Source of the DNA: Tubulanus polymorphus
Lineage: Eukaryota > Nemertea > Palaeonemertea > Tubulaniformes > Tubulanidae
Length of the DNA stretch: 64,000 nt
NCBI RefSeq assembly: GCF_964204645.1
Contig: NC_134031.1
Span: 6,307,001 to 6,371,000, forward strand
Direction: 5' to 3'
Part shown: positions 12,201 to 47,513 of the stretch, in pieces
How positions within the stretch are numbered: position 1 is the first letter of the stretch
Layout of the letters: each line of letters begins with the position of its first letter
Program-made: the position numbers and the translations under genes
Notes under the pieces: model-generated
Seen by the model: the letters and a program-made list of their open reading frames with translations, nothing else
Told to the model about the DNA's origin: nothing
The model's database searches: none

Positions 12201-15200
12201 AAAGTTCTACTCATCATCACTAGAGAAATCTGTTCGATCGGATTCAAAGCTGTTAAATTGCCCTTTCGGTCTTAAATGATTTCTGGCCCGAATTGCTAGG
12301 CCCGTAGCTCCTCTACAGTTTGACGTGCAATATACATTCTGCGGCCAAGACTGGCATAGTTTGTAAAGCAGTTTATTAATCCCCTTCTTACGCAATCGGT
12401 GACGATTTTCATCTCGCCAGTCATTGTCCACTGATGGTTAGACACATTTCAGATGTTCAGTTTTTTGATGCATACTTTATGGTATTCAAGATATCGCCAC
12501 ACCGTCATATCTCGTGTATATTTCGATCCATCCATTATCTTGTTTTGTCCACTACGGGCACTTAATGTAGATGCCAATGCATATTTTATAATCGTATTTG
12601 CCAATTTGTAGGCCATAACATGATCTATGATATGGCGAGTGAAAGGCCATTGATTTCCGTATGCCATGTTATCAGTCATTGGCATTAACAGATAATTGGT
12701 AATGAGCGGTAACTTTGTAACCTCAATAGATGATTTTTTTTCATAGATTTCTAGAATAGATAATCTCTAAAGCCCACCACACACTTTTCGTCTGCCGTTC
12801 GGGCTGACAAGTGAATCGACTCGACGCTTAACGGTCTGCGCGACAATCCTCATTATATGTAAATCATATCCATTTTCGTCATCCCATTTCTGTGAATTGT
12901 CTGCAAGAGCATACATATACATCGTCGTATCTTAAAATGCATCTGATGCCAGTTTCCAAGGCAAACTTAAATGTAGCTTTAACATTTCTTTGGAAGAACT
13001 GGCGATGGGTGCGAGATTTTAATCCTCGGGATTACTGTAATGTTTTCGCGTGAACACTCCACATGGTAATTCGTCAAGATTATGACTTCTGCGACACCAC
13101 GCGCTCGGTCTGTTTTAAATGATCCGCTGGTTTGTCACTTCGTTAAAACCAAAATCCTTCGTGGCTATATTTTTCTCTGATGAGATTCACTGCAAATCTA
13201 ATGTGAGCTAACGTTTTCGACGTCGGCAGTTACAAACGAATGTAGCACAATATTCTCCAAACTGTCGCTGAAGTGTTTGCATTGGAAAAATGCGTGTGGC
13301 CGTGGTACCGTGGTAAACGTCACCAGTTTCTAGGCGCCATATATGCCATCGGGAAAGAGATATTCAAAAGATTCGAACGCAGATCCAAAAAGCAATTAAT
13401 TTTCTTTAATTTCTGGAAAAATGAGGAACGTAAGTTTTACGGATTCTACGTTTATCTTAAGATGAATTAAATTCGCAAATTCCTGACACGCGGTATGATA
13501 TGTGGCCTTGATTTTACATATCATCACAACCCTTAATTGTTGCGTTCAAAACAACAGATTTCATTTCCTTTAAAATGATGTATAAATAATGTTTATCGAA
13601 CGAGGGACTGTAGAGCGCTGATTGATATTCAATCAAAACGCACGTATGTTTCGAAAAGACCGAAAATTATCGCAAAAATGGGGACCTCGGGAACCGCCAC
13701 AAAATGGCGCGCCCAGGAACTGGTAATCTCAATAAGAACTTTCGACATTCAAAATGATGTTTAGATCGATTAACTATCCACCGTTGTCAACTAGAACCAG
13801 TTTCGCATTTTTTTCGATTGGGTTGTGTCCCTAGAATCAAAACCCAGCTCCGAGTTAAATTTACTGAGAATTGTGAAACCAGACCCCAACCGGGCTAGTT
13901 GTCAGATCTCTTTAAGAATAACAGGAATTAGGAAAGTAATTGTGTTGTTGTGTTATCAATTTATCTGTAGAGCTGACCGGCTACGTACAAAGATATGGTG
14001 ACTGCACTGGTAATGACTTGGCTTTCGCCTACCAGGGCATCTCTGAGCAGGAGTGCAGGAAGTACTGCGACAGAACTGACTGCTGCGTGGGATTTCATTA
14101 CAAAGAGAAAACGATATCGGAATGTTTTCTGAAATCTCAGTCGTGCAACGACACCGTCTACTCGGATTATAGAGTATTTAGCATGTACGATAAAATAGGT
14201 AAATATGTAGTAACCTTCGAAAACATTTTTTGATTCATTCTACCATTTAGCTAATGTTTGATACAGTTAGCAAATTTCCAACCAATGGTGGCTGATTCGG
14301 GCAATCTTGAAAATTGTTGGGTATGCAAAATGAATCTCCAAGGCGGAATGCTAATACGTAAATCTCTAAAAAGTACCCCTAAATTTACCAAATAATTCTG
14401 TAATTATTCGGTAAATGTTGGGTGTTTTTTTGTAGGTTGAAGTATCACATGTAGTTTTTCATTTTGGTTCCTAAAATTTCCATACCGAATAAATGTTCAC
14501 AATGGTCAAAATCAACCACCGTATGACGACGTGGTTTGGCTCGGTAAATTGCCAACAACGAAATCCTGGGGATTTACAGTCATAACTAGTGTTTCATTTC
14601 TAGGACAGACGAATTTCGCTCTGCGGAAACCGACAAGTCACAGCGGAAATCGGGGAAGCGCTGAAAACTCGGCTAAAAAGGCTGTGGATGGTAAACGGAA
14701 CGGAACCAATGCCCTGAAGACATGTTCATTTATGGCATTTGATGGAAATATTCAGTGGTGGAGAGTAGATTTACAACAGGATATATATGTTACTCGTCTG
14801 ATAATTGCAAGTAGAACTGATTCCTGTTGCCGTGAGTAATTTCTTCCCATACCATAGAATTAGACTACATTTATGTACCATTTCTTCCCAGAAATGCATT
14901 ATTCCTCTTTGGCTCAAATTGACAATATGTTTATGCTTTTTACACAAGAGACAAATTAGCAACAGCAACACGTTTTGATTCATCTTTTCACGCAAATCCT
15001 GATTTCAATAGTGTATGTCATCGTTCTCTTCAAATGTTTCACCTGAAACATTGTGTTTGCAGTGAATCGTCTAGAAAACTTCAACATATTCGTGACCGAC
15101 GTACCATATTTACCGGCTTCCAATGATACGAGATTTATTTGCCATGCATATCGTGGTATTTACCCTAATGGCGTCTGGTACATTAGTTGTGACAGACCCT

Positions 15201-15947
15201 TGTTGGGTAGATATGTTACTATAGCCACTCTAGACCTAGGCATTCTGGAATTTGTCTTGTGCGAGGTCGAAGTATACGGGATCAAACAAGAAGGCAAGCC
15301 TCTGTTTTCTCATTTTTCTGTTGTTCCGTTCGAAATTATTTTCTAAAGAAATGAGTCAGTTTCATTTGTAAGTTATCATGCTTTTCCGAGCATTGATACC
15401 ACATATTTTACTTAGCTTCAGAACGGACGATACAGTATTCAATCAGAGAACTGTTAACTGGTCTTCACTACCCCATTCGTGGATAGGACGTTGAACAAAA
15501 ATCTCTTTCGTTTCAGACCTGAACACGGAAAAAGTAAAACCAAGCAAGAAGGATAGAAAGATAGTCAACCCAGCCGTTATAATGGACAACGACCTACAAA
15601 CGTGCGGAAAGTTCAACAAAAATAACCCAGTCAGAATCAACCTAGCCGGTATCCGCCCGCGCGCTAGGCATCGTGCGCCGTTGGCCCTAGTCGCCCATGT
15701 ACCGGAAGAATCGTCGTGTAGTTACGCGCTGGAAAGTGACGTGAACGTGTTTTTTCCGGTAGGTGGCAGAACGGCCGAATCGTGTCGCTATTGGCAACGC
15801 TGCGTATTTCTGAATCATTACGTGGAAGGACGGGTGAGGCGATGCGAATTCATTTGCGAACATGCAGATAATAAAAAAGTGCCTATCAAAGAACTGATGG
15901 TTTACTCCAAAGGAAAACTATGCGAAATAAGCCTCGGATCATGTTAA
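3275..15947 (+). CDS. Secreted fucolectin-type lectin with PAN/apple-like module, 6 exons
   Basis: Exons: 3275-3366 minus its last base (coding ends 3365), 5831-5878, 13971-14198, 14604-14831, 15063-15293, 15517-15947. All five introns are phase 1, and the joined frame codes 418 aa. Residues 1-30 are a signal peptide (MAPTEK start, hydrophobic core, SPDCTA end). Residues 46-122 are Cys-rich (RYGDC, RKYCDRTDCCVGFHY) and resemble a PAN/apple fold. Residues 124-272 match the eel-fucolectin/F5-8 type C family: NFALRKPTSHSG, KAVDG, WWRVDL, SRTDSCC, GRYVTI, LCEVEVYG. Residues 276-418 have a basic linker, then a Cys-rich module that may be a diverged second jelly roll (MDNDLQTCGKF). By family it should bind sugar outside the cell, as in recognition or defence lectins. 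The last intron uses a GC donor (CAAGAAG/GCAAGC). Exon 2 is short (48 nt) and the next intron is about 8 kb. The fucolectin call is firm; the PAN and C-terminal calls are inference. Confidence 0.85.
4118..4484. mobile_element. Foldback element with degenerate CCCTAA core
   Basis: The arm GATATTTTGCCAATGCGGC (near 4123) is inverted as GCCGCATTGGCAAAATATC (near 4463). The interior holds loosely spaced ACCCTAA/ACCCTTA words between 4290 and 4385. It lies in the lectin intron 1. Confidence 0.6.
7119..7304. mobile_element. Foldback MITE with palindromic TTCGACTTATTATGTCGAA core
   Basis: Terminal arms TACGGAAGCCCCTAGGTGAC and GTCACCAAGGGGCTTCCGTA frame several direct and inverted copies of TTTCGACTTATTATGTCGAA. 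Almost the whole element can fold on itself. It lies in the lectin intron 2. Confidence 0.75.
8580..8742. mobile_element. Foldback element, family A, right half
   Basis: GCCGAAACGTTGCTCGAAAT, then TTTTTGGCCGCATTTATTGT and GTATCCTTTCGACTCACC, match the right half of the other family A copies. The left arm is not clearly present. Confidence 0.55.
9320..9507. mobile_element. MITE with TTATAACGCCA ends
   Basis: AAGTCCCTTATATAACGCCA at left and TGGCGTTATAACGGACTTTG at right are inverted; more GTTATAACGCCA words occur inside. It lies in the lectin intron 2. Confidence 0.6.
10910..11290. mobile_element. Pair of inverted tRNA-derived SINE-like copies
   Basis: A minus-strand copy around 10915-10990 (GGTTCGAATCC at 10931-10921, preceded by ACCATCA) and a plus-strand copy around 11160-11240 (GCCATCAGGTTCGAATC) share the same pre-B-box segment, including TTTCGTACCGTGCC and TTTCATGCCGTGCC. 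They face each other in the large lectin intron. Two further B-box-like sites on the minus strand occur at 11565-11576 and 11689-11700. Confidence 0.5.
11793..11918. repeat. Short tandem repeat, about 20-bp unit
   Basis: About six imperfect copies of a unit like TTTATCCTTCACGTTATGAG occur in a row inside the large intron of the lectin gene. Variants change the TATGA part (GTCATGAC, GTTGCTAC, GTTATAGG). Confidence 0.7.
14282..14523. mobile_element. MITE, family C (GGTGGCTGAT ends), lectin intron
   Basis: The left end AATGGTGGCTGATTCGGGC faces the inverse-like right end GGTCAAAATCAACCACCGTA. It is a diverged pair in the lectin intron between exons ending 14198 and starting 14604. The same terminus recurs at 17309 and near 30781-30801. 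Confidence 0.5.
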
Positions 15948-16978: not shown

Positions 16979-19900
16979 ATGAAAACGAACAAAGTTGCAG
17001 CAGCGCTTTTGGAGGTGCATCAATCAGGAGAGGAGGTTTCAACGTCAGCCGATCTTACAACTCATCAATGGGACAAAGCTATCCACGAAGCAGTCATCAC
17101 CGGAGGTGATGGAAACCGCAAAGGATTGATTAACTTATTCAAAGCGTCCGACCCGAGCTCTAAAAAGGGTATTAAAGAACTTTTTAAGAATTCAGTGTGA
17201 ATACATTGGAATCTCCGTAGGCTCAGTTACTTCTGGACTATTGAATCAGCAAATGCCTTCTGGGTGCTTGTGTATCTAAATATCTTCCAGTTGGAGATAC
17301 AATTTACTATGGTGGCTGATTTTGGCCATACTAAAAAACTTTCTGTATGGCTAGAGGAACGAAAAAAAACATTTTCACATTGGCAGTTATTTGGTTTTCT
17401 CGCGCGAGAATTGAAAACTCTTGGTTTTCTCGCGCGAACATTTTGGTTTTCTCAAGTTTGGTTTTTTTTTCGCGCGAGAATGTGTGTGCAATTGGTTTTC
17501 TCGCGCGAGAATTCAAAAGTCTTGAGTTCTCGTGCGAGAAAGCCAAAAAACGGGCCAATGTGAAAAAGTTCTTATCGTAGCTCTAGCCCTACAGAAAATA
17601 TTTGACTATGGCTCGAATCAGCCACCATATTGTACGGCATTTTACAATCAAAGTTTTTATGTTTATAGAATGCAATAAAATCTCTAGGCCTATCACCGGA
17701 ACAGGCTTATATTTACAATGAGGAAGCAACACACAATTAGTGCGTGTGTTCTGATTTATGCATCTTAATATTCCAGGAAAGCGAATACAAATGTTTAAAC
17801 TTCTGTTCCTGACAATGATACCGATATTTACACTATGCGTGCTGACAATTCTGGACATGGCTGTCATAAATAGAAACAACATCATAAAAGGGTATGTTTT
17901 GTGTGCGTAGACGTTTCAGTGTTCTAATTTCAATCCTTATTCTGATAGAACAGAATATATACGATATGCACATTTTTCTCCAGTCAAGGTAATTTAGGAT
18001 TTTTTGTAAGTGATAATTGTTTGTTAGCCCGTTTTCTTCATTGGTTCCATCCTGAATACCTAATCAGAAATCCAGAAAAAATCTAAAATTTCCTTTTCAT
18101 GTACATGTTAATATCTATATTCATATTCATTTGTTTCTCAGCATGATACGGGACGTGATCAAATTTAGTACCGAAGCTGGTACGCTGGTTCACCAATTGC
18201 AAAAAGAACGGGATATGACGACACTCCATCTGAGCACGCTGGGCTCAGAAACGCGTATGTTTCTGAAAGAAGTTTACCCGCAGGTCGACATGGCCGTCAG
18301 CAAAATGTCTAAATGGCAAGGTAACACGAAGAAGGACGGCGCGCATTTCCGAACTAAGTTCGAGTTCCAGCAGCTGCTCATGGAGCACAGACTACGGCTG
18401 AAACCAGAAAATACGAACGTCTACAAAGAAATTGATTTCTACACGCGAACGATCGCCGTGTTCATCGACTGGATGTACGACGCCATTCAAGAATCACGTG
18501 ACGGGGACGTATGGCGCACCCTGGTGGCGTACCAATTACTGGTAATGGCAAAGGAAGACCTAGGAATCGAAAGAACCTTAGGTGGATTGTACTACAGCAA
18601 AGGGCGTTTTTCAAGTTATAAAGATTATCTCTGGTGGCTGGAAAGACATCATGCTGGTACGTAGGCCAATCTCCTTCCCTAAGAATATTCATTGCCAGGA
18701 ATGCAGTACCCTCCATCTAAAAAGTTTATAAATGCTTTTTGGACTAATTCAGTAACCGATGATTTTGACGTTCCTTTCTCTTGATCAGGTATTGGTAATT
18801 TGGAAACCGCTATTCAGTTCAGCGGTTTCGTCGCTAAAATCATGGAGGAGGAAAAGAATTCACACCGCAAGAATTTCACTTTGTCCATTACGAGCATGCG
18901 AGAAGAAATTAGTCGTAACGATTACATGTCGACAAACGCCTCCCTCGAAATGAGCACTTGGTGGTTTGATAACATGACCATCTACATGGATATGTATTTC
19001 AAAGTTCAAGTTAAACTGGCCGATTACATCATGGAGCGTCTCGGGGCCTCTATCCTCCGAGATGTCAAAGATATATCAGTCGGTATAGGGCTATTCATGA
19101 TAGTTTTAGTAATATGTCCGGTGATCATCGTATCGGTCAGGGCTATTATGAACGACGTTCAGCGCTACGCCTTCGCCCTGGTCGACCGCTCGCACGACTT
19201 AAACGTGGAGCGTCAGCGCACGAATCAGCTCTTGTACCAGTTGCTGCCGAAACCGGTGGCTGCCCAGCTAAAGCGCAATAAACACGTAGCCGCTGAAGTT
19301 TACGACGACGCCACCGTATTTTTTTCCGATATCGTAGGATTTACGAAAATCTGTTCTAATTGCAGCCCGATGCAGGTACCCTCTTCTATTGAGAGATAAC
19401 TACAATACGACGATTGATAAACCCATAAACGAAAATAATCTTAAACCAGCACTACCAATATTTGCATCTATCATCACTTAAATCTAGCGATAGAGTTCTT
19501 ACTTTCCGAAATATGTTTTCTCTAACTGCATTTTAAATTCTAATCAATTCTAGGTCATCGATATGTTAAACAACATATACAGCTTGTTCGATGGCCGCAT
19601 AGAACTCTACAACGTCTACAAGGTTGAAACAATCGGCGATGGATACATGGTCGTTTCTGGTAAGTTCGTGCGCCTATATTCATTAGTCCAAATTCGGTCA
19701 TGTACATGAACAATGAAGCGTGGCTGAGATAATGCGGTAAAAACTACAAAAATAACTATCAAAACCACCTCCTTTTTAAGATGAATTCGTAGTCTTAACG
19801 GCAGGAATAACTCGCGAGGACAAAATTTGCAATCTAATGGGGCATTCTGACATTGATCTCATTAAGCATGACATACGGAAATATTTCTCGAAACTTTATT

Positions 19901-22491: not shown

Positions 22492-24897
22492 CTAAACGTT
22501 CTTTGTGAAAGTTGGTATCTTTTCTAGTGGTACAGGGTAGTGCTTTAACCATTTCGGTCCCACGTGAACGTCTGAAGTTGTGTCGTCTGTCCAGCTTCCT
22601 GACGGTACATAAATATCTCGCATTGTTGCATCCTTGTCCAGAATTGGTGCTACGAGAATTTCGTCGCCAACGACAAATTGCGAGTCTATCGTGTGACAGA
22701 CAGAATCAGTCGGATCAATCCACCACAAAGGTCGTAGAATAGGGCTTCCTGTAATAAAGATACATATATTTGCTCAAAGCTCACAACATCATCATCAATA
22801 ATTTGGCCATAGTGCGAATTTTGTGACCATTTCCTTCATCGACAACCGATGAATAGATCTAAATCTTTAATGCGCTCTACAGTAGACTATGCACAAGTCG
22901 GATCTAGTTGGATTGTAAAAATGTGTCCGACTTGAGTGATATCCGAGTTGGATGTTATGCATTTCATACTGTCACAGAAATACAGTAGAACCCGCTTGGT
23001 TCGGATCATTTGGGACCAACGAAATTAATCCACTTTACGGGAACTCCGAATTAAAATTTATTTTCCTATGATTTTAATGAACAAATGGACAGCAAAAATT
23101 AGGCTGATCGGGATTATGCGGATTTGACTTATTTCAAATAACATCCGAGTTGATCCGATCCGACTTGGACAGAGTCCGCTGTACAAGGAACCCTTGTATT
23201 GTGTAAAAAGTGCATGTTCATTTGGCTTAATTCTTACCATCGACAGCAGTCGTCTGGGCGGCTCTGACTATAGCTGGGTAGACAATCTGGTCGTGGATCT
23301 CCACCAGATGTTTACATACAGCGACGACCTGATGGTCGTATTGCCAGGGCGCGATGGAGAACTGCATTGCCGGAAAATACGCCGTAACCTGGGCCCATCG
23401 AACGAATAATTCTCTATCGGGTATTTTCCCCACATCGGACCCGTTGTAAGCATTGCCACCTATCATATCCGGTAGCACAAATGGATATCCAAGCAGTCCG
23501 AAGAGTAACGCTTTCGGGATAAGCGATCTTAAACCGTTGTCGTACCCCCACTTGGAATCCAAGTCCATGATTCTCACGAATAAACCGTGACGTTGCGTCC
23601 GGTAGCCGCTCCGTACCTCGACCAAATTACCAAATATGGACGCCATGTCAACGAACAGTGTAGTATAGTTTGAAATATCATCCTTAATTTCGTCCGTAGA
23701 GCTAAATTTTGGAAGGATCGGTAAAAAGTTCGCTTCTCCGGCATCGAACTTAAACGAATCGATTTTATACTGCTTTTGAAATGCAGTCAACCGCGAGACG
23801 AACCAGTCGAACGCAGCGGGGTTGGTGACGTCCAATATGGCCGCGTTTTCCCCTTGCCACCAAGCCACGTGACCGGGATTATCGCCCATTTCATTCTGAA
23901 CCCAAAACCGATGACGACGACCATCGTCGTACGCGGCGGAATCACAATTAGCAAATGGATGTACCCAAACTGTAACGAGGAATCCATTTTCGTGGAGCTT
24001 CTCGACCATACCGGATGCATCTGGAAATTTTGCCGCGTCGAAGTCGAATTCACCATATTCACTAGAGTATTTATCATCAATTTCTAACTGACTGAAGAGG
24101 AAGTTGTGTTCGAGTATTTCGAGCGAGAATTGTAGTACTTTTTCCTGATCGATATCCGCTTTAAAGCGAGCCCAGGTCGACCAAATAGGCCGCCGAATCA
24201 TAGACGTATGGGGAATACTTTTTGGCCATCCGAGGAACCTTTTCTGCGCAAACTGATGAACGCTTTTGATACTATTTCCGATTAATATCGTGTAAGACAG
24301 ATGTAATGGTTCTGAAACGTGTTCGTATCGTTCCTTATTGTCGGCTCGGAGACGGAGCCGACCATCTCGATTCTGATTTAAACTTACATAAAGCGGCACG
24401 CCGGGGTCAACTACGACGGCAAACCCGCTAGTCGAGACCCAATAACGTTCCTGTACCGATCCATGCCCGGGTACGAAGTTGAACGGATCTTTCGTTATAT
24501 ACGCGCTCATACCGTGCATCTGTTCGTTGATCGGCCAACGTTGCTCGTAGATCTCAGCACCTCCAAACCAAAACGCGTCGTCCAGCACGATGGCATCTTC
24601 TAGTGGAAGGTTCGGGCGCGTGGCTTCCCGACGGATTTGTATCCGACATGGATCACCACCTCGAACATGATCTTCCGTTATTTGTAGTGTAGCGTCGTCA
24701 GAGACGTACCGATGCGTGTTGGCATTACCCCGGTCCTCGGTCTTAGATCTTGTAAACGATCCACCTAGTGATTCTATTTTCAGTATTTGCCTCTCGCCTC
24801 TGCGGATCGTCAACTCATTATTAACTACTTCGAATTCTACAACCATTGCACTGTCTAATGGATACGCACCAATAAATGAACGTAATATCAAGTAAAC
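22492..24897 (-). CDS. GH31 glycosidase, MYORG-like (alpha-galactosidase type), 2 exons visible
   Basis: Exons on the minus strand: 24897-23238 and 22748-22492, joined in phase 1 at VDG/GSPILRPLWW. From the first ATG (24846) it codes 621 aa, but the frame stays open upstream (VYLILRSFIGAYPLDSAM) to a consensus acceptor at 24897, so a 5' exon, possibly with the type II membrane anchor known for MYORG, is probably missing from this model. Family hallmarks: WPINEQMHGMSAYITKDPF; KFDAGEANF with the nucleophile Asp (codon 23745-23743); RIMDLDSKWGYDNGL with the acid/base Asp; LPDMIGGNAY; and in exon 2 FVVGDEILVAPILDKD followed by VYVP-like IYVPSGSW. GH31 enzymes hydrolyse alpha-glycosides; the MYORG branch is known as an ER/Golgi alpha-galactosidase. 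Both catalytic Asp residues are present, so it should be active. Family membership is very secure; the substrate is inferred from the branch. Confidence 0.9.
22983..23192. mobile_element. MITE with ACAGTAGAACCCGC end (GH31 intron)
   Basis: ACAGTAGAACCCGCTTGGTT at left and CGACTTGGACAGAGTCCGCT then GTACA at right resemble pogo/Tigger termini. It lies in the single visible GH31 intron. Confidence 0.5.
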
Positions 24898-25159
24898 CTG
24901 CGTATACTTACAGATACATTTTTCAACAAAATTTTTTGTATGTACGGATATACTGCTGCTACACTACGGCTGTTGTACAAAGCGCAGTGCGAGCCCGATC
25001 GATAAACCCGCTACCCGTACTCGATATACGGCGATAACGGTTGTCAGAATGTGTAGACTGGTTGTCGGTCTCTATTTTCGAATGCAGGTGGCCTATGTGC
25101 AGGTGGGAAGTGTTCACCAGATGGCGCGAACGATAGTCATCTGAAATAATCTAATGGAA

Positions 25160-34036: not shown

Positions 34037-37000
34037 ATGAAATATTCTCTATTCTTTCTGACAATTTCGTTTGTTGGATTAGAGCTTCTACCGTTGACAA
34101 ACCAGCAAGGTAAGTGAAATATGCGCGTTTTTTTGGGTTAAAATGCAACAGTTGTGGTTTCACAATGAATGAACTTCAATAGTTTATACTCCATCATTCA
34201 ATGCATTATGTAATGATTATCTGAGAATCGGCTTATTTCCTCCTAATACAACATTGACCAATAAGCCTTTTTACAGTTTCCAGGCGCCACATGTTTGGGT
34301 AACCGCCGGGTCTGCATTGTTGAATTTTTCGTCCCTATTTCTCTCCGGTTTAATTTTTTTATTCCGTTCATATCTCTGGATTGGATTAAGATAGAAACAA
34401 AGTAAAAGTATCGATGAACTCAGCTGACAATTAAACGTCTGTTTTGCTTTTCCAGCCACCTGTCCACCAGGAATATTTGGTCCACGGTGTGAGTTGCAGT
34501 GCCATTGTTCTGGAGGCAGTGTTGAAGATTGTACTCCGGATGGCCGTTGCATTAGTATGTTGTGCGACTTTGGATGGGGAGACCCACCATATTGTCAAAA
34601 ACGTAGGTATTTTGTTTCAGAAGTATGCGCCCGCTCTTGTCTATTACATTTGCACCTCATACTACGATGTCCGTGGGGAAATTTAAATTCATCGCACTCG
34701 TATGAGGCCTCGAAATTAACCATTTGATAAAAACAATTCCATATTTACTTAAACATATTAAAAGACACCCAATAGAGAAGTTAATTGCACTTGTGGTCAA
34801 CGCCACCACACAATAGATAGCTCAGACGATGCATAGATAATGTGGACGAATTCAACTTTTAAAAAGTGGGAAATCATTATCGACCAACGTACTAAGCGTA
34901 TTTATTCACTATAGATATGAATAGGAAATCGTACATTTTACATCATATTACCGGGAGTTTCGTATTAACGTTATCGAACTAATCAGACATTTCTGTGTGG
35001 AAAATGCTACAAGAAAAGCTGGGAATTTTTAGATTCAACGCATAACTGAGTTTTGCGTTGTAAGCAGAATCGTACTAATGAGGTCCGACCATACACCGTG
35101 TCCTGGAGCGTGGGTCGTGTATGCGTTAGTCTTCACAAGACTCTCGTACGCCATCGGACGCTAAGGTTTTTGGTGAAGTTCATCACGTCATCATTCATCT
35201 ATAGAAATCTTTCATTTTCGTATGTTTTCGCACGACTGATTTCTAGCTTAGTAAATCCCTATTATATCATCTCATAATATCATACGAATTTCTGTATAGT
35301 ACCACATTAGTTTCACCTGTTCGACCGCTCCTGGTGTAAATCCTCGATTCATTCTATTTCATTCTTGATTCTGTTGTGTTTCAGCTTGCGATCAAGGCTG
35401 GTTCGGAGAGAGCTGTTTACTAGAATGTCATTGTCCAACCGGCGATAACTGCTCGAAGATAAACGGTCTTTGCGATTCCGGAAAATGTAACCCAAATTTT
35501 GGTGGTGCAGGTTGTCAAATACGTACGTATATGTTCTGTTGAAACGCAACGACGTATAAGTTACTGTATCAAAATGTACCAAATCAGGTCATTGATTTTT
35601 TCATTTATTTCAATCATATTATTGTAATTAAAAAGGAAAAAAGTGAACACAAGGCTAAAGAATTGATACCTTGTTTAACCGCACTGCTGAGCTTAAAAGT
35701 TGACCCGGCCGGCCGCCTATCTACCATGTATATTACTTTCTTAAAAATCGTGATCAATTTTACCAAAACAGACCCGGCAGCTATAGAAGTGAAGTGATTA
35801 CAAATTTTATTGTATTTTACAAAAATTATGCGGACGCTGCAGAGAAACAAGTTATCATTTTTATTAAGCCCGAATTATCAATTCTAGCTTCGTTGTAGTA
35901 GGTGTTTTTACAATTCTTAGATCTGCCGAAGATGGAAATCCCTCCGACGGTGGCCAATATAACCTGTGATACTGTGTGGCTCACGTGGAGAAAATGGAAC
36001 GACGCTCTCGACATGGGAGACAAACCGGTCGGCTGGTATCAGTATGTATAGTCAGAATAAATAGGCTCGAAAATCTAACTAGGCCTATAGGTTATAGACT
36101 CGACTCACATTTCGAGAAGTGAGAACGAGACGAGTGAGAGTTTGATCAACAATTAAACCCCGGAGTGACCCCCGAGTGATTGGACTCGCCGAGCTAGGTG
36201 CAAACTTGGAGTAATCAGACTGAAGTCTGATTACTTCAAGGTGCAAAGAAGCACGTTAATTCGACTAGTAGAGGGATCGAAATGGATGAAATACCGTACA
36301 ATTTAAAACGATGAATTACCAACAAAATACATCCCCGAAGTCTTCCTAGCTGTCGAACGAAAGCCTTTGACATTTTCACGGAAGTCCTGTAATGAGCAAA
36401 ACAAGATAGATCTATTATATGTTAGATGCTTTTTAGCCCACAGCGGGCTATTGCGTTCACTTTTCGTCCGTCGTCCGTCCGTTCGTCCGTAGACGGAATC
36501 AAGTTATTTTGGGAAGTTTTGAAGACGCTTCAAGGTAAATGTCTTGATATTTGGTCTATACATGTATCTACCCTAGACACATCTTCAGGCCAAAAACTGG
36601 CCCTATCAGAATCAAGATGGCTATTCAGTATTTCTATATTATATTTGTACCAATACATATTTTGTTACCCCAATCAATTACAAAGTTGTAGCTCATGACA
36701 TCGTCTATGATTGTGGTGAGTTTTAAGGAAATTAGTTATTCTATATGGTCACCAGGAGGTAGTGAATAGTAAGTAGAATAACCTTAGTATTTCCTTATTA
36801 TATTGGTACCTAGGCATATTTTGTTACCATGATCAATTGCAAAGTTGTAATTCATGACATGTTCTATGATTGTGGTGAGTTTCAAGGTCATTGGGTTTTG
36901 AATATGGTCACCAGGGGGCGTAGAATAGTAGAATAACTTAGAAGTATTTCCATATTAAATTCGTAACAAGGCATATTTTGTTATCACAATCAATTACAAA

Positions 37001-40000
37001 ATCGTAGCTGCTGACATGTTCTATGATTGTGGTGAGTTTCAAGGTCATTGGCTTTTGTATATGGTCACCAGGGGGTGTTGAATATTGAAATTGTTAGATT
37101 GTTGAGCATTTGAAACCACTTTCCAAGTGGGCATGGTGTCCCTGGACCCCTAGTTTAAGAAGAGTTTTCTAAGAAAGAAGGAAAACTGAATATTTGCAAC
37201 GCATTTCTAAATAAGAATTATAGATACGTCATATATGTTTATCACGATAAAATGAATTATCGCAAAAATTTCAATTTTGATCAGTAAATAGACGGAGTAT
37301 GACGCAACAAAGAAAATATGACCTGTGATAAGAAAGAATTAATCTATGACGTTTATCATAATACTTCATCAAAACATTTGACATTTTTTCGGCTTTAAAT
37401 ATTTGAACTGTCTAAATGATATATGCACGCAAAATATGAATGGATTTATATATCTCCATTGATTCCCAAACTGACGAAAAGTATTCCCTTTGGTCACGAT
37501 GACTCGCCTCGGCTCAAAAATAAAATATATTTTCGATCGAATTACCTCATTTTCTGAAAGTTCCCTGAAATTCTGGATCCAGCTCCACAGTCGTGAGTTA
37601 GAATCAACTCCGAGTTAGAATTTTTTCATTTTCAATTAGTTAACTTTTAATGAGTCAAATCCTAATTCTGTGGAACGTAGACTTACGAATATGCAAACGA
37701 TATGATAAATTATACGTTATTCTATGATAACGGTTCTTGTTAGGGAATCTATCTAGCTGAAAACGAAATTCATTTACGGTTGTTCTTGTAGGATTCTTTA
37801 TTCGGATTCGGTTGATACAACCATTCGCTCCAGCAGTATGATTCCAGAACCGACATTGCAGAACGTCACCTGGTCAACAAACGGACTGATCAAGGGCCGA
37901 CGATACACGTTCCAGATAAAGGTTTTCAGGAAAGATTTCGGCAAAGCTTTTCCAGGTTTGATCGGCCCAAAAACGGATGAGATTTTGCCCCAATGCCCGG
38001 GTAGATATTGATTTTTACTTTAAAAACATAACACGAAGATCATACATTCATTAATCATTAATTTCAAGATTTAAAAAAGATGCTTCGAACACTTTTGTAT
38101 CGCTATGGCGTTTCTTTTAAAGAAATGAAATATGATTTTCCCATACAAATTCATAATGGAGATTAAAATATGAAAGAATTGCCTGCCTTGATTTGGTGAT
38201 TTAATGAAGAAATTTCTCCCATGAACCTTTATCGTAGCTCAAGAGCCTGGAGTGGTCAATTCGGCAACTTATCAACAAATACCGCCAGACACCGCTAGAA
38301 TCACTTGGTCTGCTCCAACACTGCACCCAGAAGATGTTATCGGATACACAATTAAATATTACAGACACGGTAAATGAAGATTCTAAGAACGACTCAATAA
38401 GTTCCATATGAGATCAGAATTCGAATCACTCTTATCCGCATGAACTGTAGATGAATTAAGAACTCCCGCAATAGGACTTATTACAATAAAATCTTATCGT
38501 ATCGAAACCTAAACGAACGAAGGATACAATAACATATGATTTGCCATTTTATTCTTGGACAATTATACCTAAATGATAATAAGACAAGGGACAGCCATTG
38601 GTTGAGATACGAAATACATGGAAAATGGACATCGTAATATTGCGAAATTCTTATGTGGGATTCCTAATTCTTCATGTGAAATGTTTAGTTCCTACTACTT
38701 ATACATTTAAGGGTTTTTTGACTCGTATGAGTTGCATATCTGAACTGATCTCAAGTCATGTCTTAATCCTTAAATCAAAGCGGTGTCCTTCATTTTCGCT
38801 TTGCTTAAGTAACAAATCTTAAGTAACGCATTATTCTTCCATATATTCTAAATATCGATAGTCGTTGGAACCTGCAACACTTCCTATCCTGGTCGAGTGC
38901 TCTTCGTGAACACATTACCGACTGCAAGCGCAGCGAATCTAACAAACCTGCAACCGTGGAGCACGTATCACGTCGAAATTTTCGCTCAAGGCCGCGATGG
39001 TTTAAAAGGTGCTTCGACAAATATCAGCATCACTACTGACAAAGCAGGTACTTCGTAATTTCCTGTTGAATACCAGTGTTTTTTTCAAATAAGGAAAGAA
39101 TCATGTGTCTGAAGTTAGATCTAACGCATATCAGGTTTTCTTTTTTTTTGATTTTGTCATTGTTGAAGTCATTTGCTTGCATATCTGATAAGCTTAAAAC
39201 ACCTATGCTTTTCCTTCCAGCGCCCACCGGTCGAGTAAGAAACCTCCGTACACAACAGAAATCCAGTTCTACCATTACTATCACATGGGATCGCCCGGAA
39301 TGTATAGAAAGAAACGGGCCGTTCTCAAACTATCAAATCAAAGCATCGCATGCCACAGTGATGGTGGTAAATATTAGTTTTCTTTCATAGGGCTTTGACT
39401 AAATGGAAAATGCATTTTATAGGGGCTTGGAGAAAGAAAAACGGAGGTTATTTGTATTCAGAGGAAGTGCTCAGTACTAGGTTTGATATGTAGCCTGTAT
39501 GAATCTGACTTAAATTTCTGAGTTGGGATTGTGCGTGTTTTCATTTCAGATAGTAACGAGTCAGTCTTTCATGTATCAAAACCTACAACCGAGTACTGAC
39601 TATACATTCTCAGTGCGTTACGTGAATGCCGTGGGTCCTGGGCCTTTTAACAGCATTACCGAAAGATCGAGTGCCGATAGTAAGTGGATTTTATAGTTAG
39701 TAGGCTAAGGGATATTATATTCGATGAAATGAAAAGATTCGTAGAGGAGCCATTTTAACACGATGTCGAATCAGTAAAACGTAGTGACAGGGGGTAGGTT
39801 TTATGAGTGAATAAGTCAGCAAATGACCCGATGAAGCTGCCATGCAGTAGTAGCGAAAAAAATGTTAAATCTTGAATAAACTAGTTAATCTATCAGGGCC
39901 GTACGTAGCATTTGAATTTTAGGGAGGGAGGCAGAGAAATCTGAAAAAGGGTATCTATAGGATAATAATATTCGCAAAAAGGCACTTTTCCAATATTTCT

Positions 40001-43000
40001 GGAGGCAACAGCCCCTTTGCCTGCTAAATGCGGTCCTACCTACGAATTACTAGCTGTCTCTACGCTGTGATGAAAGAAATTAATGCAATCAGGATGAGTT
40101 AGTTACATGTTGCTTCTCTTTTACGCGTACCCTCTATCAGCTTCTACGGAGAATCATTTCTCTCTCGCCTTTCAATTTCAGCCTCAGCTCCCGGACCTGT
40201 ATCAAACATTCAAGCGGCATCACCAACCAGTAACTCTGTCAGTATTTCGTGGGATAAACCTGTCAAACAAGGAAACACTGTGACCAGTTACACCATACAA
40301 TATACCAAAATTAGTAAGTTCATATTTATTCAAGCAAATTTATTTTATAAGTGGTACCTTTTACAAATCCGTATATTGTACGTATATATTGTGCGAAATA
40401 TCCGTATATTTACTTAGGCAATAGATATTTATTATCGATGATCAAATCAGCTTAGATACTCGAAAAACCTGCATAACATTGACACGTTGATTGAAGAGAA
40501 TTGAAACAAAACCCCGGGCCCAGTTCCACAGTTGTGAGTTAGAGTTAACTCTGAGTTAAAATTAGTTCATTTTCAATGAATTAACTCCGAGTCAAATCAT
40601 AACTCCTGGTCTAATCTCCCACGTTCGCTCGCTTGGCTTAATCCATAATTGAAAACCCAAAAATACGCGTAATATAACGTACAGTGAACTAAAATATAGG
40701 TTATTTCCAAGTTTCATTTTAGTTAACTCAAGAAATGCAATAGGCTCGTGGACTGTATGTTAATTGACGTATTTTATTTTAGGTACAGGTAATTGCGACA
40801 CCACACCCGGCCCGCTGCAAACAACTAAATCTGCTAGTAATATGCTAGTCGCATCGTTAACTGGTTTGAAACCCTGGTCGACTTATAAAGTGCAGGTATT
40901 CGCTATTGGTGTAAACAATCAAGCAGGGACTGCTACGGAACTATTGCCATCTCCGAAGACACTTCCTGCAGGTACGTTGATCCAAGATATTAGCTTACGT
41001 ACTTTATTGTATGAATCCTTGACCTTGAAATATTGATGATCGTCTATGCAGTGAATTAAATATTTGCGCGGTTTCATATTTCGGATGATCCGAAAATAAG
41101 ATTTAATGACAATAGTATTGAAATACTATGCTGCATAAGTATATAGAAACACAATTTGGCCTAAGATGAAAATAAGGAAAATAATTGTTCATTAAAGCTC
41201 TATCAAATTTAACACAGTAAGCCAACGCAGACACACTCGATTAAGAATACCGTATCAAAGAAAATAATTATTTTCATTATTACAGTACCAGCGACGGGAG
41301 TGACCAATATAAGATCGACCGGTACGACTAATTCACAATTGAATATCGCATGGGATGACCCACCATGCGCGGATAGAAACGGTGCTTTCCGACGATACAA
41401 GGTAACATGGTCTGGTTTCTCAAGAGGTCAAACTCAATGTTTTCATTGGGAAAAATTAAAACTAAGTGGTTTTGGAAGCCATCCAAGTGAATGATCGATT
41501 ATCAAAAAATGAACATTGAACTAGTCGGCTTACCATCTGCAGCGATTAGAATAGCGACGTTATATGACAAGAATTTGTAAACGCCAGTATCAGTTGGCAA
41601 TCGACCAGCAACATTGCTATTATCATTATTGTTTATTTTCTGAAAATTATAGCAATTTATAACGAATAATATACAATAAATAGACTATGATGTTGTTGTA
41701 CTATTTCAATATGAATTATGACATAATCTATCAGAGGGGAAGATATCTGAATAGTAACCTACTGCAAACTTCATAGATACGCGGATCGTCAAAAAATTTG
41801 TATACATCAAACATCAAATCAATAGGAAAAAAAGCAATTCGTCATTCAAATGCGTTTTAAACGATTTTGATGGATGGCAGGGTTTTTAAATGTAGCATAA
41901 AATATAAACCATTACAAATTTTGGGATCATTTACTTTTAAGAAGATCTTTTTTAAGTCGATTTAAACTGTTCATATCGAATATTTCTACCGTCGTCGGTT
42001 TCTTGTGAGGTTACCTTTTGCTCATCTCTAGAAATTAAATATTTTCAGTTAATGATAAAACGTGGAGCGTCTCTGATCGTAGATGAATTTGTACAGATAA
42101 AACAGAAAATACAACCTGGTTTGCAAGCCTATACTGATTACATCATCCAAGTTGCTTACGTTAACGAAATTGGCGTGGGTCCTTTCAGTGAACAAATCCT
42201 AAAAACAGCCCAAGGAGGTAAGAGTGTGTTTTACAGCGTTGTACAGTGGAACCTCGTTATAGCGAACTTCACACCGGGATAAGAAAATATATTCGTTATA
42301 ACCGATAGTTCGTTATATCCAGTGTGTATTTAATCAAATTATTCTACTTGAGACGAAATTCAATATTCGTTATATATATCCGCTGAATCGTTGTATATCA
42401 TAGTTCGTTTAACGAGGTTCTATTTTATTTCTTAGTTTTACCCATGTTTATGAGAGACAAACTTACTTATTCTTCCGCAAGGCCTACATGGAACAGCTCT
42501 TAAAACCCATCGCTTTCGTTGGCAGACCCCATTGTTTTTTTACGCAACGGAATAAAGGTCTATTAATGTTTGTTTTCACCAATATTTTTAATTTTTCTCG
42601 TTAATTTCAGTACCATCTCCACCGCAGAATGTGCGCGCACGGGCTATCGGTGCCAGTAGAATCCGAGTAGATTGGACGGCGCCAAAAAATCCCAATGGCG
42701 TTCTGAAAACCTACAGCATCATCGTAAATGATGGCAATCAAGTCGTTCAGAATAATCCGGTTGCTGCAACGGTTACAAACAGCATTATCACCAATTTGCA
42801 ACCGTTAACAACGTACACTATAACGGTAAGGTTTCAAAAATATTACTGAACAGCTGAAGGTTTCAAAAGGTTCACAACTTTTAAGATTTTGTTAAATTTA
42901 TATGGCATATGCATCTAAGAAAAAGCGACGTCTGTTCTTCAAATACGATAGAGAAATTCCACATTATAATTCAGCCAAAGACGAAAAGTTCTTGAATAAA

Positions 43001-46000
43001 AATGTACATATTTTGAGCAAAGTTTCGGTTATAGACTATTAGTCGTCATCAGACGTACGATAGCTAATAGTCTTTGGCCGAAATGTTGCTCAAAAGGCTT
43101 CAACCTTTTATTCAAGGACTTTACATGTTTGGCCAATTATTGTCGGATTTCTCTCTATATTCACTTTACGGATATTATGAATCATCTTGACTTAAATGCT
43201 CTTCGTGAAGTGAAAATTATTCAAATGGATATTTTGCGTTCACCGGTATATGATATGATACACATATTGTGTGTGACGGGTGTTTTTGGTGGGGTAGACG
43301 ACGATAACATATTCGATCACGTCTAAAAAGAATGTTAAAAAAACCACATTCAGTGACATTATCTAAAATCTATTACATCCCGTCATGGACACAAATCATA
43401 ATCAAAGTTAACAAATAATCAAAGCTACGTGATTATATTCCTGATAGTGCAATTTTTTGTACATTTTACGCGTGCAGATGACAGCTGCCACAGATTTTGG
43501 AACAAGTATAGTTAGCAACGCAGCACAAGCAACCACATTGGCAACAGGCGCCCCTTCCATGCCTACCGGGATCAAGATGATCAGCCGAACCGCGACCGCT
43601 ATAACGATAGGTTGGAGTGAACCGATTAGCCCAAACGGTGTCATACAAAGCTACCAGGTATATGAATTATCATGAAACCATTCGTTCAAATGAAATGTTT
43701 TCTTATCATGTGTACAGAATGACGCCCACCACGAGATATGCACTTAGTCAGTAGAAGTCTATATCGTTCCTTACTGCATTTTTGAATATCGATCCCGGCA
43801 AAGAATTCGCAAGTTATTTTGTAAGATGCTGTATGGGAAATAGTATAGAACCTTGTGTTCTTCTGTCAATTTAGTTTTGATACTATGCATTACAATCCAT
43901 TGATACTATGCACGGATTACATGTATTTCGATAAGTTTTCAGTTAGCTTTAGCGGGGTGGATCTGGATTTTCAAAGTGGGGATGTCCTTCTGGTGATCCC
44001 CGAGAAAATCCTTAAAATTATTCTAATTTCATGCATTTTGATCGAGCTTTTTTAGGCACTGCTTGATCATTTTGTATGACAGTACACTTTGAAATGTAGT
44101 GTTGATAAACTAAAAATAGAAATCACGAAGGAAATTTTCCAAAGAAGGGATGCTCTAGCGCCTAAAGCACCCCCTCAATCGAAGCCTGTGATATTGCGGT
44201 TGTATGACAGAATGTTTTACGGTACCTATTTTACACTAGGATAAAACTCAACGATGACTTCAACATGTCTCTTGTGAGTTTTAAGAGTGTAAAGATGTTT
44301 CTGAAAATTCCATTTATTCATTCATTTCTAGGTTAATGTAACTTACGTTCAAACGAAATCAACAACTGGGCAGGCATCGTCGACGATAAGCATAGATTTA
44401 CCCGCCGATGCCAGAAGGAGAATTGTGGACGGATTACACCAAGCTACCTTGTATAAGTTCGCCGTCACGGCCAGAACGACCTCATTCGGGCAATCGGCGT
44501 TAGTGGAACTCTGGACCGAAGTCGGTAGCCCGCCGGTACCCGACACACCCGAACAGATCGGCGTTACCGCGACGAATATTACGCTGCGTATCAAACCGGT
44601 GCTAGCCACAAACGGGCCGATAACGTCTTACCGAATAATGGTCGAGGAAGTGGCGAGCAGACGGCGTCGAGCCACGCCCCGGGTCGCCGCCGAACTGTTA
44701 CCCGATTTCTTCGCCGGCAACCCTTCCCGAACTTTCGTGGTAGGGGACGACTCGACTTATAACGGCTACCAGAACGCGGCGCTTAAACCGGCGACTAAAT
44801 ACAAAATAGGGTATTCGGCTGTCAGTTCGAACGACGGCTCGACGAAAGAAACGACAGTGTGGATGGCTCCGGTGACTAGCGAATCGATCACCGCGACAAA
44901 CAACGATTGGATATGGATCGTCATCGTGGTCATCGTCATACTCATCATCATTATCATCATAATCGTCATCGTCGTATTGTGCCTGCGAAAGAAGAGAAAG
45001 TCGCACGATTTCAACAAGACCTGGTTGAATAACTACAGCATGAATCAGGATAAGTTCGACACGATGTCGCTGAACATTCGGCCGTACGGCAAATGGAGCG
45101 ACGTCACGAACCTAGGCGAACCGAGGCACGTCGTCCACATGAAAGATCCGATTAAAAATCCGGATCCCAACATAATTCCGCTCGAGAGCGAGTATCACAA
45201 ACTGCCCACAGATCCGAAGGGAACGTTGCACGTGGCGTCGAGACCGGAGAACAGGATTAAAAATCGCTTTCAGGAATTTCTTCCGTACGACCACAGTCGC
45301 GTGAAGGTGGTCGACCCTCATCATCGATCCGACTATTTCAACGCCAACTACGTCGACGGTTACCGAAGACAACAGGCTTACATCGCGGCGCAGAGCCCTT
45401 TCAACGGCGATACGATCAACGACTTCTGGAAACTCGTCTACCAAGATAACGTGGCGAAAATCGTGCTCATGTGCGAGCCGATGGAGTACAACGTTTTCAA
45501 GTGCGAGAAATACTGGCCGGACGAGGGCACGCACACGTACGGCGCTTGCGTCGTGCACGTCGTTAACAGCCAACAGTTCGCGCATTACATCGTCAAGACG
45601 TTCGAAGTGTTTCCGCAAGGGCAGACGAAGAAAACCGTCCACCATTACCAGTTCACCGGCTGGCCGCCCAGATCGATACCGTCCGATCCGATTCCGTTTT
45701 TAGAATTCGTCCAGAAAGTCCGTTCTCACGCCAGTGAAGATATCGGCATCGAGCCGATCCTGGTGCACGGCGGGACAGGGGTCAGCCGATCGGCCGTGTT
45801 CATCGCGGTCGACGCAATGCTCGACAAGGCCGCCAACGAAAACGGCGAGATAAACTTGTTCAGATTTTGTTGCAAAATGCGCGAGCAGCGTTTCGGGATG
45901 GTGCGCACTTTGAAGCATTATTTGTTCATTTACGACGCGCTTTTCGAAGCGCTGATTACCTCGCCGACTTTCATAGACATCGACATGCGAGCCGCCTATA

Positions 46001-47513
46001 AAACGCTGGTCAGACGAAATCACGAGAACGGACATTCGTATTTACAAGAACAATACAAAGTGCTGTGCTATTACACTCCGGAATTAAGCGAAGAACAGTG
46101 CAAAGTGGCCGTGCGGGCTCAAAATAGGAGCAAAAACCGCTACGACGCGATAATTCCGCCCGATGCATACCGACCGGTGTTGAAAACGCCGGGCGGGGTC
46201 AATCGCACCGATTACATCAACGCGTTGGTAATCGATAGCTTCCTTGTACCGATGGGATTTATCATAACGCAGACACCTCTAGCCGCAACCGTCATCGACT
46301 TCTGGAAGTTGGTGTACGATTATAACGTAAGAACGATAGTGACCATGCACGATCACACCTTCAAAGACGATACGGTCGTCGACTACTGGCCCAGCGCCGT
46401 CGACACCGCCGAGCGACAAGGACCGTTTTTCGTCAGCGTGAAAACGATCGTCAAAGAAAAAGAGTTCGTCTTCTCGCGGCGGATGAATCTCACGAATTCT
46501 CTGAAACCGAACGCGAAAGCGCGCGAAATTAAGCAATTCCAGTTTTCCGGTGAGTGGCACATGTACGACAAGGTGCCCAGGGACAGGGAGGCGATGGTAC
46601 AACTGCTAGAGACTGTCATTCAGCACAGAACGCATCACTCGATCGGGCCCGTTTTGGTGCATTGCGTCGATGGCGCCGGGCGAAGCGGTATGTTCTGTTC
46701 GCTGATGAATCTGATCGAAAAGATGAGAAATGACGAATACGCTGATGTATTCCATACGATAAAACACATCAAGAGACGAAGGCCTCAAGTGGTCAATGAC
46801 TACGTAAGTATCAAGGGCATATATCATCCGGTGTATAGGTATTGAACTTACCTGAAACAATACGTGGCTGTGATCTACGTTCCACTGCTGCAAACTTCGG
46901 TTATCGGACGTTAGTCGACTATTTGCAAACTAAGTGAAACCGAACGTTGGTTTTGGTCGGAAGGATAGTCAGGAAATAGCGAACTACGAGCACGCTGATA
47001 CCAGACCTAGCATGCCTAGATAATTCGAATTGCCTATAATAAAACAGTGTAACAGTATATAGTAAATGAACAGCAATATTCACGTTATACGTATTATCTT
47101 TGCAGGAAATGTACAAGTTTGTTTTCAAGACTTTGTGGGACTACATCAATCTCCACATGCGAGACGCCCTTATCAGTAACAGTGGCTACGTGGCAAGCAA
47201 CAGTAATTACCGACTGTCCTCGACGAATTCGGTCGATTACACGCTGTCGAACGGTCGCTATCCCAGTCGCCTGTCGAATTCCATCATCGGCTATGACGAA
47301 CCGGACAGGTTCGGCAGCAAAAACCGGCTGTCGACTTTGGGAACTACGGCCAATTCGGCGAACTTCGATTCGTCGTCGTCGCACGGGGGCGGTAGATACG
47401 GCAGCAAGAGTCGCCTAGTTCCGCCGTCGAATACTTCGCGATTGAGCGATCGCTTTTCGTCGTCGAATTCGTTGAACATTCACTCACCAGCTAAAGCTAA
47501 TTATTACGCCTAA
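34037..47513 (+). CDS. Receptor-type tyrosine phosphatase (EGF-like, about 8 FN3, TM, two PTP domains), 17 exons
   Basis: Exons: 34037-34109, 34456-34602, 35385-35522, 35921-36041, 37792-38000, 38238-38369, 38862-39047, 39221-39366, 39550-39679, 40182-40313, 40783-40971, 41286-41401, 42049-42217, 42611-42825, 43478-43657, 44332-46803, 47106-47513; 1720 aa, all junctions in frame. Signal peptide 1-24 (MKYSLFFLTISFVG); two MEGF/Tie-like EGF modules 25-119; FN3 repeats about 120-945, most split over two exons; furin-like RRRRA at 871-875 in the last FN3; TM about 954-981 (WIWIVIVVIVILIIIIIIIV); PTP D1 about 1049-1290; PTP D2 about 1330-1600; and a Ser/Asn/Gly-rich tail. D1 has WPP instead of WPD (codons 45661-45669) and VHGGTGVSRS instead of VHCSAGVGRT (Gly codon 45769-45771), so it lacks catalytic Cys and Asp. 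D2 keeps VHCVDGAGRSG (Cys codon 46663-46665) but has WHMYDKVP where WPDHGVP is expected. RPTPs dephosphorylate tyrosine downstream of adhesion; normally D1 is the active domain. Confidence 0.93.
36430..37154 (+). mobile_element. Interspersed element with three internal about 165-bp repeats (RPTP intron 4)
   Basis: It starts with a hairpin (TAGCCCACAGCGGGCTATTG), then a GTCCGTCCGTTCGTCCGTAG stretch. Three tandem units each carry CATATTTTGTTAC, CAATCAATTACAAA, GATTGTGGTGAGTTTCAAGG and ATGGTCACCAGGGGG. It ends GGTGTCCCTGGACCCCTAG. An inverted, longer copy sits at 58620-59693, and the hairpin end alone recurs at 47938-48110. Confidence 0.7.
37573..37680. mobile_element. Small MITE, family B copy (RPTP intron)
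   Basis: GATCCAGCTCCACAGTCGTG at left and CTAATTCTGTGGAACG at right, with the shared centre TTCATTTTCAATTAGTTAAC. Confidence 0.6.
40513..40610. mobile_element. Small MITE, family B copy, right end lost (RPTP intron)
   Basis: GCCCAGTTCCACAGTTGTGA and AGTTCATTTTCAATGAATTA are present; the right terminal arm breaks off after ATAACTCC. Confidence 0.55.
42243..42424. mobile_element. MITE with CAGTGGAACCTCGTTATA ends (RPTP intron)
   Basis: ACAGTGGAACCTCGTTATAG at left and TCGTTTAACGAGGTTCTATT at right are near-inverted, with repeated TTCGTTATA words inside. The termini resemble pogo/Tigger elements. Confidence 0.6.
42945..43195. mobile_element. Foldback element, family A copy 5 (RPTP intron)
   Basis: Left arm GAGAAATTCCACATTATAAT and TTCAGCC; right arm GGCCAATTATTGTCGGATTT. 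The centre has TAGTCTTTGGCCGAAATGTT. It lies in the RPTP intron 42826-43477. Confidence 0.7.
45193..45975 (+). other. PTP domain 1, predicted catalytically dead
   Basis: This membrane-proximal PTP domain keeps the fold signatures (KNRFQEF, DYFNANYVDGY, YIAAQSPFNGDTINDFW, QRFGMVRTLKHY) and the P-loop Arg. The catalytic Cys codon has become GGC (Gly; a TGC-to-GGC change is enough), the WPD Asp is Pro, and the usual Gln of the EQY motif is His. All three changes remove catalytic groups while the scaffold is preserved and the frame stays open, which fits selection for a pseudophosphatase or phosphotyrosine-binding role rather than decay. Confidence 0.85.
46120..47160 (+). other. PTP domain 2, retains Cys-x5-Arg
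   Basis: The membrane-distal PTP domain contains SKNRYDAIIPPD, DYINALVIDSF, FIITQTPLAATVIDFW and the P-loop VHCVDGAGRSG. It is interrupted by one intron (46804-47105) just after RPQVVNDY; the next exon supplies EMYKFVFKTLWDYI. The Cys and Arg of the active site are intact, but the WPD loop is unusual (GEWHMYDKVP), so activity cannot be assumed. Confidence 0.8.

Follow-up and report, generated by a model that had tools for sequence, protein, structure and literature searches.

The locus described here raises the question of whether a receptor-type protein tyrosine phosphatase (RPTP) with an altered catalytic centre is still an enzyme. The gene, with all its features given below, lies on the plus strand of a 64,000-nt stretch of Tubulanus polymorphus DNA (the window, G000:C7:6307001-6371000); our genome survey covered the 267.8-Mb animal assembly. 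With two Y_phosphatase domains, D1 and D2, spanned by a Pfam match of 390.6 bits and placed after a single transmembrane (TM) helix and an adhesion-type ectodomain, its product is a tandem receptor-type classical protein tyrosine phosphatase (PTP). An earlier note on this DNA had proposed a reversed catalytic layout, with a dead D1 and a D2 that keeps Cys-x5-Arg. We consider it probable that this is a genuine tandem receptor PTP turned receptor pseudophosphatase, working without catalysis.

The D1 domain (45193-45963), whose best PDB sequence matches are PTPRS and LAR, has lost the residues needed to form the thiophosphate intermediate and to donate a proton. Direct codon reading confirmed the two substitutions described in the earlier note. 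The WPD loop reads W-P-P (TGG CCG CCC, 45661-45669), with the general acid Asp replaced by Pro (CCC, 45667-45669), and the PTP loop reads HGGTGVSRSA (45766-45795), with the nucleophile Cys replaced by Gly (GGC, 45769-45771) and the phosphate-binding Arg kept (CGA, 45787-45789). Also missing are both Q-loop Gln (VRTLKHY) and, in the PTP loop (GVSRSA), conserved Gly residues, and the Gly, Ala and Ser changes in the PTP loop add to the losses of Cys, Asp and both Gln. On the common alignment frame the motif set is KNRF, WPP, HGGTGVSRS and VRTLKHY, which lacks the WPD Asp, the HC-x5-R and the Q-loop Gln of a competent classical PTP. From the known PTP mechanism, a domain without nucleophile, general acid and Q-loop Gln should not dephosphorylate. 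The Tyr to Phe change in KNRF was considered as a further mark of loss and rejected, as Cys-bearing intact D1s in the genome also read KNRF.

The losses are not spread evenly over the domain. Among 49 alignment columns with at least 85 % conservation across 16 intact domains (17 active-site and 32 other columns), D1 keeps 34, namely 8/17 in the active site vs 26/32 elsewhere (Fisher p 0.022, a modest value that depends on our own choice of columns). Structure modelling had been suggested for both domains, and for D1 it gave a PTP fold (AlphaFold, predicted local distance difference test score, pLDDT, 74.3; predicted template modelling score, pTM, 0.75) with the first 50 residues poorly modelled. 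Structures matching this model include PTPRG, LAR, PTPRT and, at rank 7, PTPRU D1, with E about 1e-20. D1 is almost certainly a pseudophosphatase, and an error or a decayed pseudogene is an unlikely source of the substitutions, since the losses leave the reading frame intact and cluster in the active-site loops of a preserved scaffold.

Regarding D2, the situation was less clear-cut. The domain except its last helix lies at 46021-46803, and its best PDB matches are PTPRE and PTPRA. As the earlier note stated, its codons give an intact Cys-x5-Arg in the PTP loop HCVDGAGRSG (46660-46689, Cys TGC at 46663-46665) and an odd WPD-loop equivalent, WHMYDKVP (46555-46578), which is one residue longer and has no Asp at the acid position. 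The motif set is KNRY, WHMYDKVP, HCVDGAGRS and VNDYEMY; the Q-loop Gln is lost, and D2 does not qualify as a competent classical PTP either, although HCVDGAGR is kept. It retains 33 of the 49 columns, and unlike in D1 the losses are not concentrated in the active-site loops (10/17 active-site vs 23/32 other columns, Fisher p 0.52). A WPD loop longer by one residue is common to other divergent D2s in the genome (WHNGDPVP, WTENQDAP, WPEDESVP, WPNRHKIP), so it was probably inherited.

The retained Cys-x5-Arg does not by itself mark D2 as the active domain. In our alignments the D2 sequences of LAR, PTPRS, PTPRA and PTPRE keep HCSAG[VA]GRTG together with WPE, and most readable D2s of the genome also keep HC...R; the motif is lost in the D2s of L039 (Cys), L038 (Arg) and the PTPRG-like L042. 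For the 12 human tandem RPTPs, D2 is treated as a pseudophosphatase domain (PMC7320164, PMC7959691), and several WPE-bearing D2s have negligible activity (PMC2638020). The reversed layout is therefore unsupported: Cys-x5-Arg is common to D2s classed as inactive (LAR, PTPRA/E) and to most D2s here, and the window D2 lacks both the acid and the Gln. Judged by these motifs, D2 is most likely inactive or has at best trace activity.

The earlier note had suggested looking for relatives with the same changes, and a survey of paralogs recovered one of the two: the Gly recurs in 17 paralogs, but the WPD Asp is intact in all 14 Gly copies that could be read. As these carry the same D1 Gly change, the window gene is no lone oddity. 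The copies belong to a young tandem RPTP family, found mostly in a tandem array at C12:1.07-1.47 Mb with further copies at C12:2.51 Mb and on C7, C9 and C10. Gly copies are located at C12:1.07-1.47 Mb, C12:2512700, C7:6505471 and C9:4322293 (L015, L019-L021, L023-L025, L029-L030, L048 and L055-L060). Their D1 exon ends in CAT-GGC-AG|gtaaa (H-G-S-A-G-A-G-R across the intron) vs CAT-TGC-AG, and a genome-wide search with this DNA pattern found 18 such exon ends, 17 with GGC and one with TGC (C10:9378910, L051). This pattern was used to call Gly or Cys at the site, a shorter one (HG plus donor) having been dropped as too unspecific, and three of the 17 Gly copies (C7:6505471, C12:1348702 and C12:1419505) are known by the exon-end motif alone. 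Paralog exons were otherwise chained by a home-made profile, which leaves exon-end residues less certain than direct DNA reading; L019-L021 and L023, for example, appear as VLSAG in the alignment through an overlap artefact, but their exon ends read CAT-GGC.

The 14 Gly copies that were read have an intact WPD motif, PTP-loop Arg and MIQN Gln in D1, and the D2s that were read carry WPEDESVP-type loops and HC...(D/N)STTR, so the D2 Cys is kept. The pooled ratio of nonsynonymous to synonymous changes per site (pN/pS) over 96 D1 codons in pairs among these copies was 0.31, where unconstrained drift would approach 1, with the reservations that the pairs lack independence and that gene conversion may have acted. 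The older relatives L053, L054 and L061 have CAC-TGC at the D1 site. L051 keeps TGC though nested among the Gly copies, a pattern that points to gene conversion, a reversion or recurrent loss.

Tree tests separated the D1s of the family from the window D1. A clade of the window D1 with the Gly copies was rejected with or without L051 (approximately unbiased test, p-AU 9e-4 and 7e-5), and with it a single origin of the two Cys to Gly changes, which thus arose independently, at least twice. The window D1 took no firm position in the trees. It did not cluster with the R2A (LAR) type, whereas L035 groups with LAR/PTPRS; the name LAR-like for L035 is thus tree-supported, while the PTPRG-like L042 and the PTPRN-like L049 were named by motif resemblance. 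In a tree with 57 rows, D1s and D2s together, the window D2 grouped with D2s of lineage-specific RPTPs with ultrafast bootstrap 100. Under a mixture model its placement in a D2 tree was less sure and came with a long-branch warning; two alternatives were mildly rejected, one placing the window D2 among LAR-type D2s (p-AU 0.031) and the other among the D2s of PTPRA/E (p-AU 0.030).

Other PTP loci showed changes of their own. L062 (C12:9246500-9253000) has the D1 PTP-loop Arg replaced by Trp (HCSSGCGWTG), and its near twin L061 (C12:4021000-4027500) retains HCSAGCGRTG. L034 (C1:31626500-31631500) encodes a PTP-like domain with a degenerate WPD loop and C-SSGVN-N in place of the PTP loop, the Arg being lost; by its motifs it is likely a further pseudophosphatase.

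Several other explanations of the window gene were weighed. It is unlikely that D2 has taken over catalysis and D1 serves as its regulator, a phosphatase working through D2 having been one proposal of the earlier note. D2 retains KNRY, HC-x5-R and a Gly-rich PTP loop next to a dead D1, but the acid-position Asp and the Q-loop Gln (VNDYEM) are both missing, the D2s of LAR and PTPRA/E that are classed as inactive retain Cys-x5-Arg too, and its active-site columns are kept no better than the others. Equally doubtful is the proposal that D1 is a phosphotyrosine-binding module, a STYX-like decoy or substrate trap that holds phosphorylated partners. The replacement of Cys by Gly with the Arg kept is indeed the STYX change, and the Gly, Ser and Arg of the motif HGGTGVSRSA are common to STYX-domain proteins (PMC8269279, PMC9464862). 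However, the loss of Asp, Cys and both Gln together makes a trap or decoy weak: the Asp, both Q-loop Gln and the Gly, Ala and Ser of the PTP loop, all lost here, are mostly kept by classical Cys-to-Ser trap mutants, and the PTPRU D1 is described as incapable of phosphotyrosine binding (PMC7320164). The C12 family, with Cys loss only, fits this mode better.

Early gene decay, in which the intracellular domains drift after selective pressure has gone, would account for the many lost active-site positions and for the long branches of both domains. We regard it as quite improbable, because 837 codons and the last exon are without stop or frameshift, splice sites are intact, and scaffold columns are kept with the losses concentrated in the catalytic loops. 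The long intact frame, an ancestral last intron and a proper donor and acceptor bear out the earlier argument that this is no simple pseudogene. That the Gly and Pro codons stem from an error in sequencing or assembly is hardly credible, as several separate in-frame substitutions hit the D1 active site with the frame intact over 2.5 kb, the Asp to Pro change takes at least two base changes, and the same Cys to Gly change is found in 17 other loci.

The receptor pseudophosphatase remains the best explanation: most likely neither PTP domain is catalytic, and the receptor acts in the manner of PTPRU, binding or scaffolding its partners. The EGF-like and FN3 (fibronectin type III) ectodomain would sense contact or a ligand; D1, keeping the PTP fold and the phosphate-binding Arg, would perform no dephosphorylation; and the intracellular domains may engage partners or substrates, either to shield them or to complex with active RPTPs, by analogy with PTPRU. 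On the same analogy, the simplest function is most likely contact-dependent recruitment or shielding of partners. Several points weigh against this explanation. No D2 substitution proves inactivity, as Cys, Arg and the Tyr of KNRY are present and WHMYD contains an Asp two residues on, and the D2 structure model failed (pLDDT 52) and was not used. Constraint on the window gene is not measurable, because the gene is single-copy in the assembly and its closest paralogs are about 25-40 % identical.

Among known systems PTPRU is the closest parallel, being a tandem RPTP with a catalytically dead D1 and a D2 that is also a pseudophosphatase, while the window domains are dead by prediction. The PTPRU ectodomain includes FN3, and the window gene differs in its EGF-like exons; MAM and Ig domains, which together with FN3 form the MAM-Ig-FN3 ectodomain of R2B receptors (PTPRK/M/T/U), were not seen in ten ectodomain fragments and the main exon, where FN3 was found. 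PTPRU differs in D1 as well, where the Cys is still present next to WPE, GSRQ and a PTP-loop Thr, in contrast to the Cys to Gly and Asp to Pro changes here. It binds PTPRK substrates without dephosphorylating them (PMC7320164) and may protect substrates (PMC7959691). LAR and PTPRS (R2A) are nearest to the window D1 by sequence, at about 40 % identity, but the genome has its own LAR-like gene (L035, C2:4.96 Mb) with an intact D1 and a LAR-type D2. The C. elegans proteins EGG-4 and EGG-5 regulate a partner, the kinase MBK-2, and neither is a tandem receptor. By description rather than by sequence comparison they offer a further likeness as PTP-like pseudophosphatases (cited in PMC8269279). The likeness to STYX lies in the Cys to Gly change within H-C-x5-R and the retained G-x-S-R, and STYX regains activity when this Gly is changed to Cys (PMC9464862, PMC8269279). 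Membership in the STYX family was rejected: HG-x5-R is present, but STYX is no receptor and has a dual-specificity domain, whereas Pfam places the window D1, a complete classical PTP domain, in Y_phosphatase, and a weak DSPc match fell on D2 only.

PMC7959691 lists six pseudophosphatases among the 37 classical PTPs of humans; PTPRU, the sole tandem receptor of the six, keeps its D1 cysteine. We found no report of a receptor D1 with Cys to Gly in the open-access literature, which is weak evidence. What is new here is the young RPTP family with the D1 change in 17 of 18 copies, independent of the window gene. Outright loss of the D1 nucleophile, together with an independent, recently multiplied family whose pN/pS is well below 1, would show that D1 can persist in a non-catalytic role. 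The C12 family is a more credible case of a STYX-like mode than the window D1, since only the Cys is gone there, and its members are natural Cys-only mutants that can be compared directly with the Cys-bearing close relatives L051, L053 and L054. Some "phosphatase" receptors of T. polymorphus probably signal without enzyme activity. More tentatively, and with less than even confidence, RPTPs may have switched repeatedly to non-catalytic receptors by D1 Cys to Gly, in the window gene and in the expanding tandem family, the Cys-only loss turning the C12 array into a natural set of membrane-bound receptors that bind phosphotyrosine and shield or present substrates instead of removing the phosphate.

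The main exon (44332-46803, 2.47 kb) encodes the last FN3 region, the TM helix, the juxtamembrane region, D1 and most of D2, with Pfam matches to fn3/Fn3_PTPRU and Y_phosphatase. Its 5' limit is the boundary of the open frame and not a mapped acceptor, and the ectodomain limits and the gene's 5' end are likewise provisional. The open frame (44332-46842, 837 codons) would be stop-free by chance with a probability of about e^-40. The TM helix, read from the translation with approximate limits (44905-44985), is WIWIVIVVIVILIIIIIIIVIVVLCL, followed by RKKRK. Within the range given in the earlier note, 45193-47160, the part 46804-47105 is a phase 0 intron (GTAAGT...TTTGCAG, the donor GTAAGT directly following 46803), and D2 is completed by the exon after it. 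This last exon (47106-47513), an open frame after the acceptor, encodes the final D2 helix and the C-terminal tail; it begins with EMYKFVFKTLWDYIN, and the tail ends with NIHSPAKANYYA before the stop at 47511-47513. The intron matches in position and phase the MVQTE|DQYQF intron, the last in the LAR-like D2 (L035: GAG|GTATGT...CAG|GAC), and is therefore ancestral.

Upstream, split FN3 exons of the ectodomain lie at 38225-43672, with Pfam fn3 in seven fragments and the strongest match at 42592-42846 (E 1.2e-13). EGF-like exons of the CxxGxFGxxC type, probably the N-terminal ectodomain, were recognised at 34428-35539 from the cysteine pattern in two open fragments, with a weak Pfam EGF match only at 35369-35539 (E 0.025), and were assigned to the gene by order and strand. 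TM, D1 and D2 share one exon with only the last D2 intron retained, whereas the paralog PTP loci are intron-rich and match exon by exon. The GC content at third codon positions is 0.64-0.72 along the window gene and averages 0.41 in other PTP exons, but L049, L061 and L062 reach 0.65-0.68. A block intron loss via an mRNA copy is a plausible explanation of the single large exon. Scans of the genome_contigs and viral_contigs collections, which contain no other animal genomes, found no orthologs of the gene, and an NCBIfam scan gave no match.

Elsewhere in the window, open reading frames at 18056-19396 (plus strand) resemble a NIT-domain receptor guanylate cyclase, and a long, mostly intron-free one at 23230-24963 (minus strand) resembles a GH31 alpha-glucosidase. 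Fucolectin or F5-8C-like exons at 14441-14836 and 15495-15944 (plus strand) may belong to a separate lectin gene.

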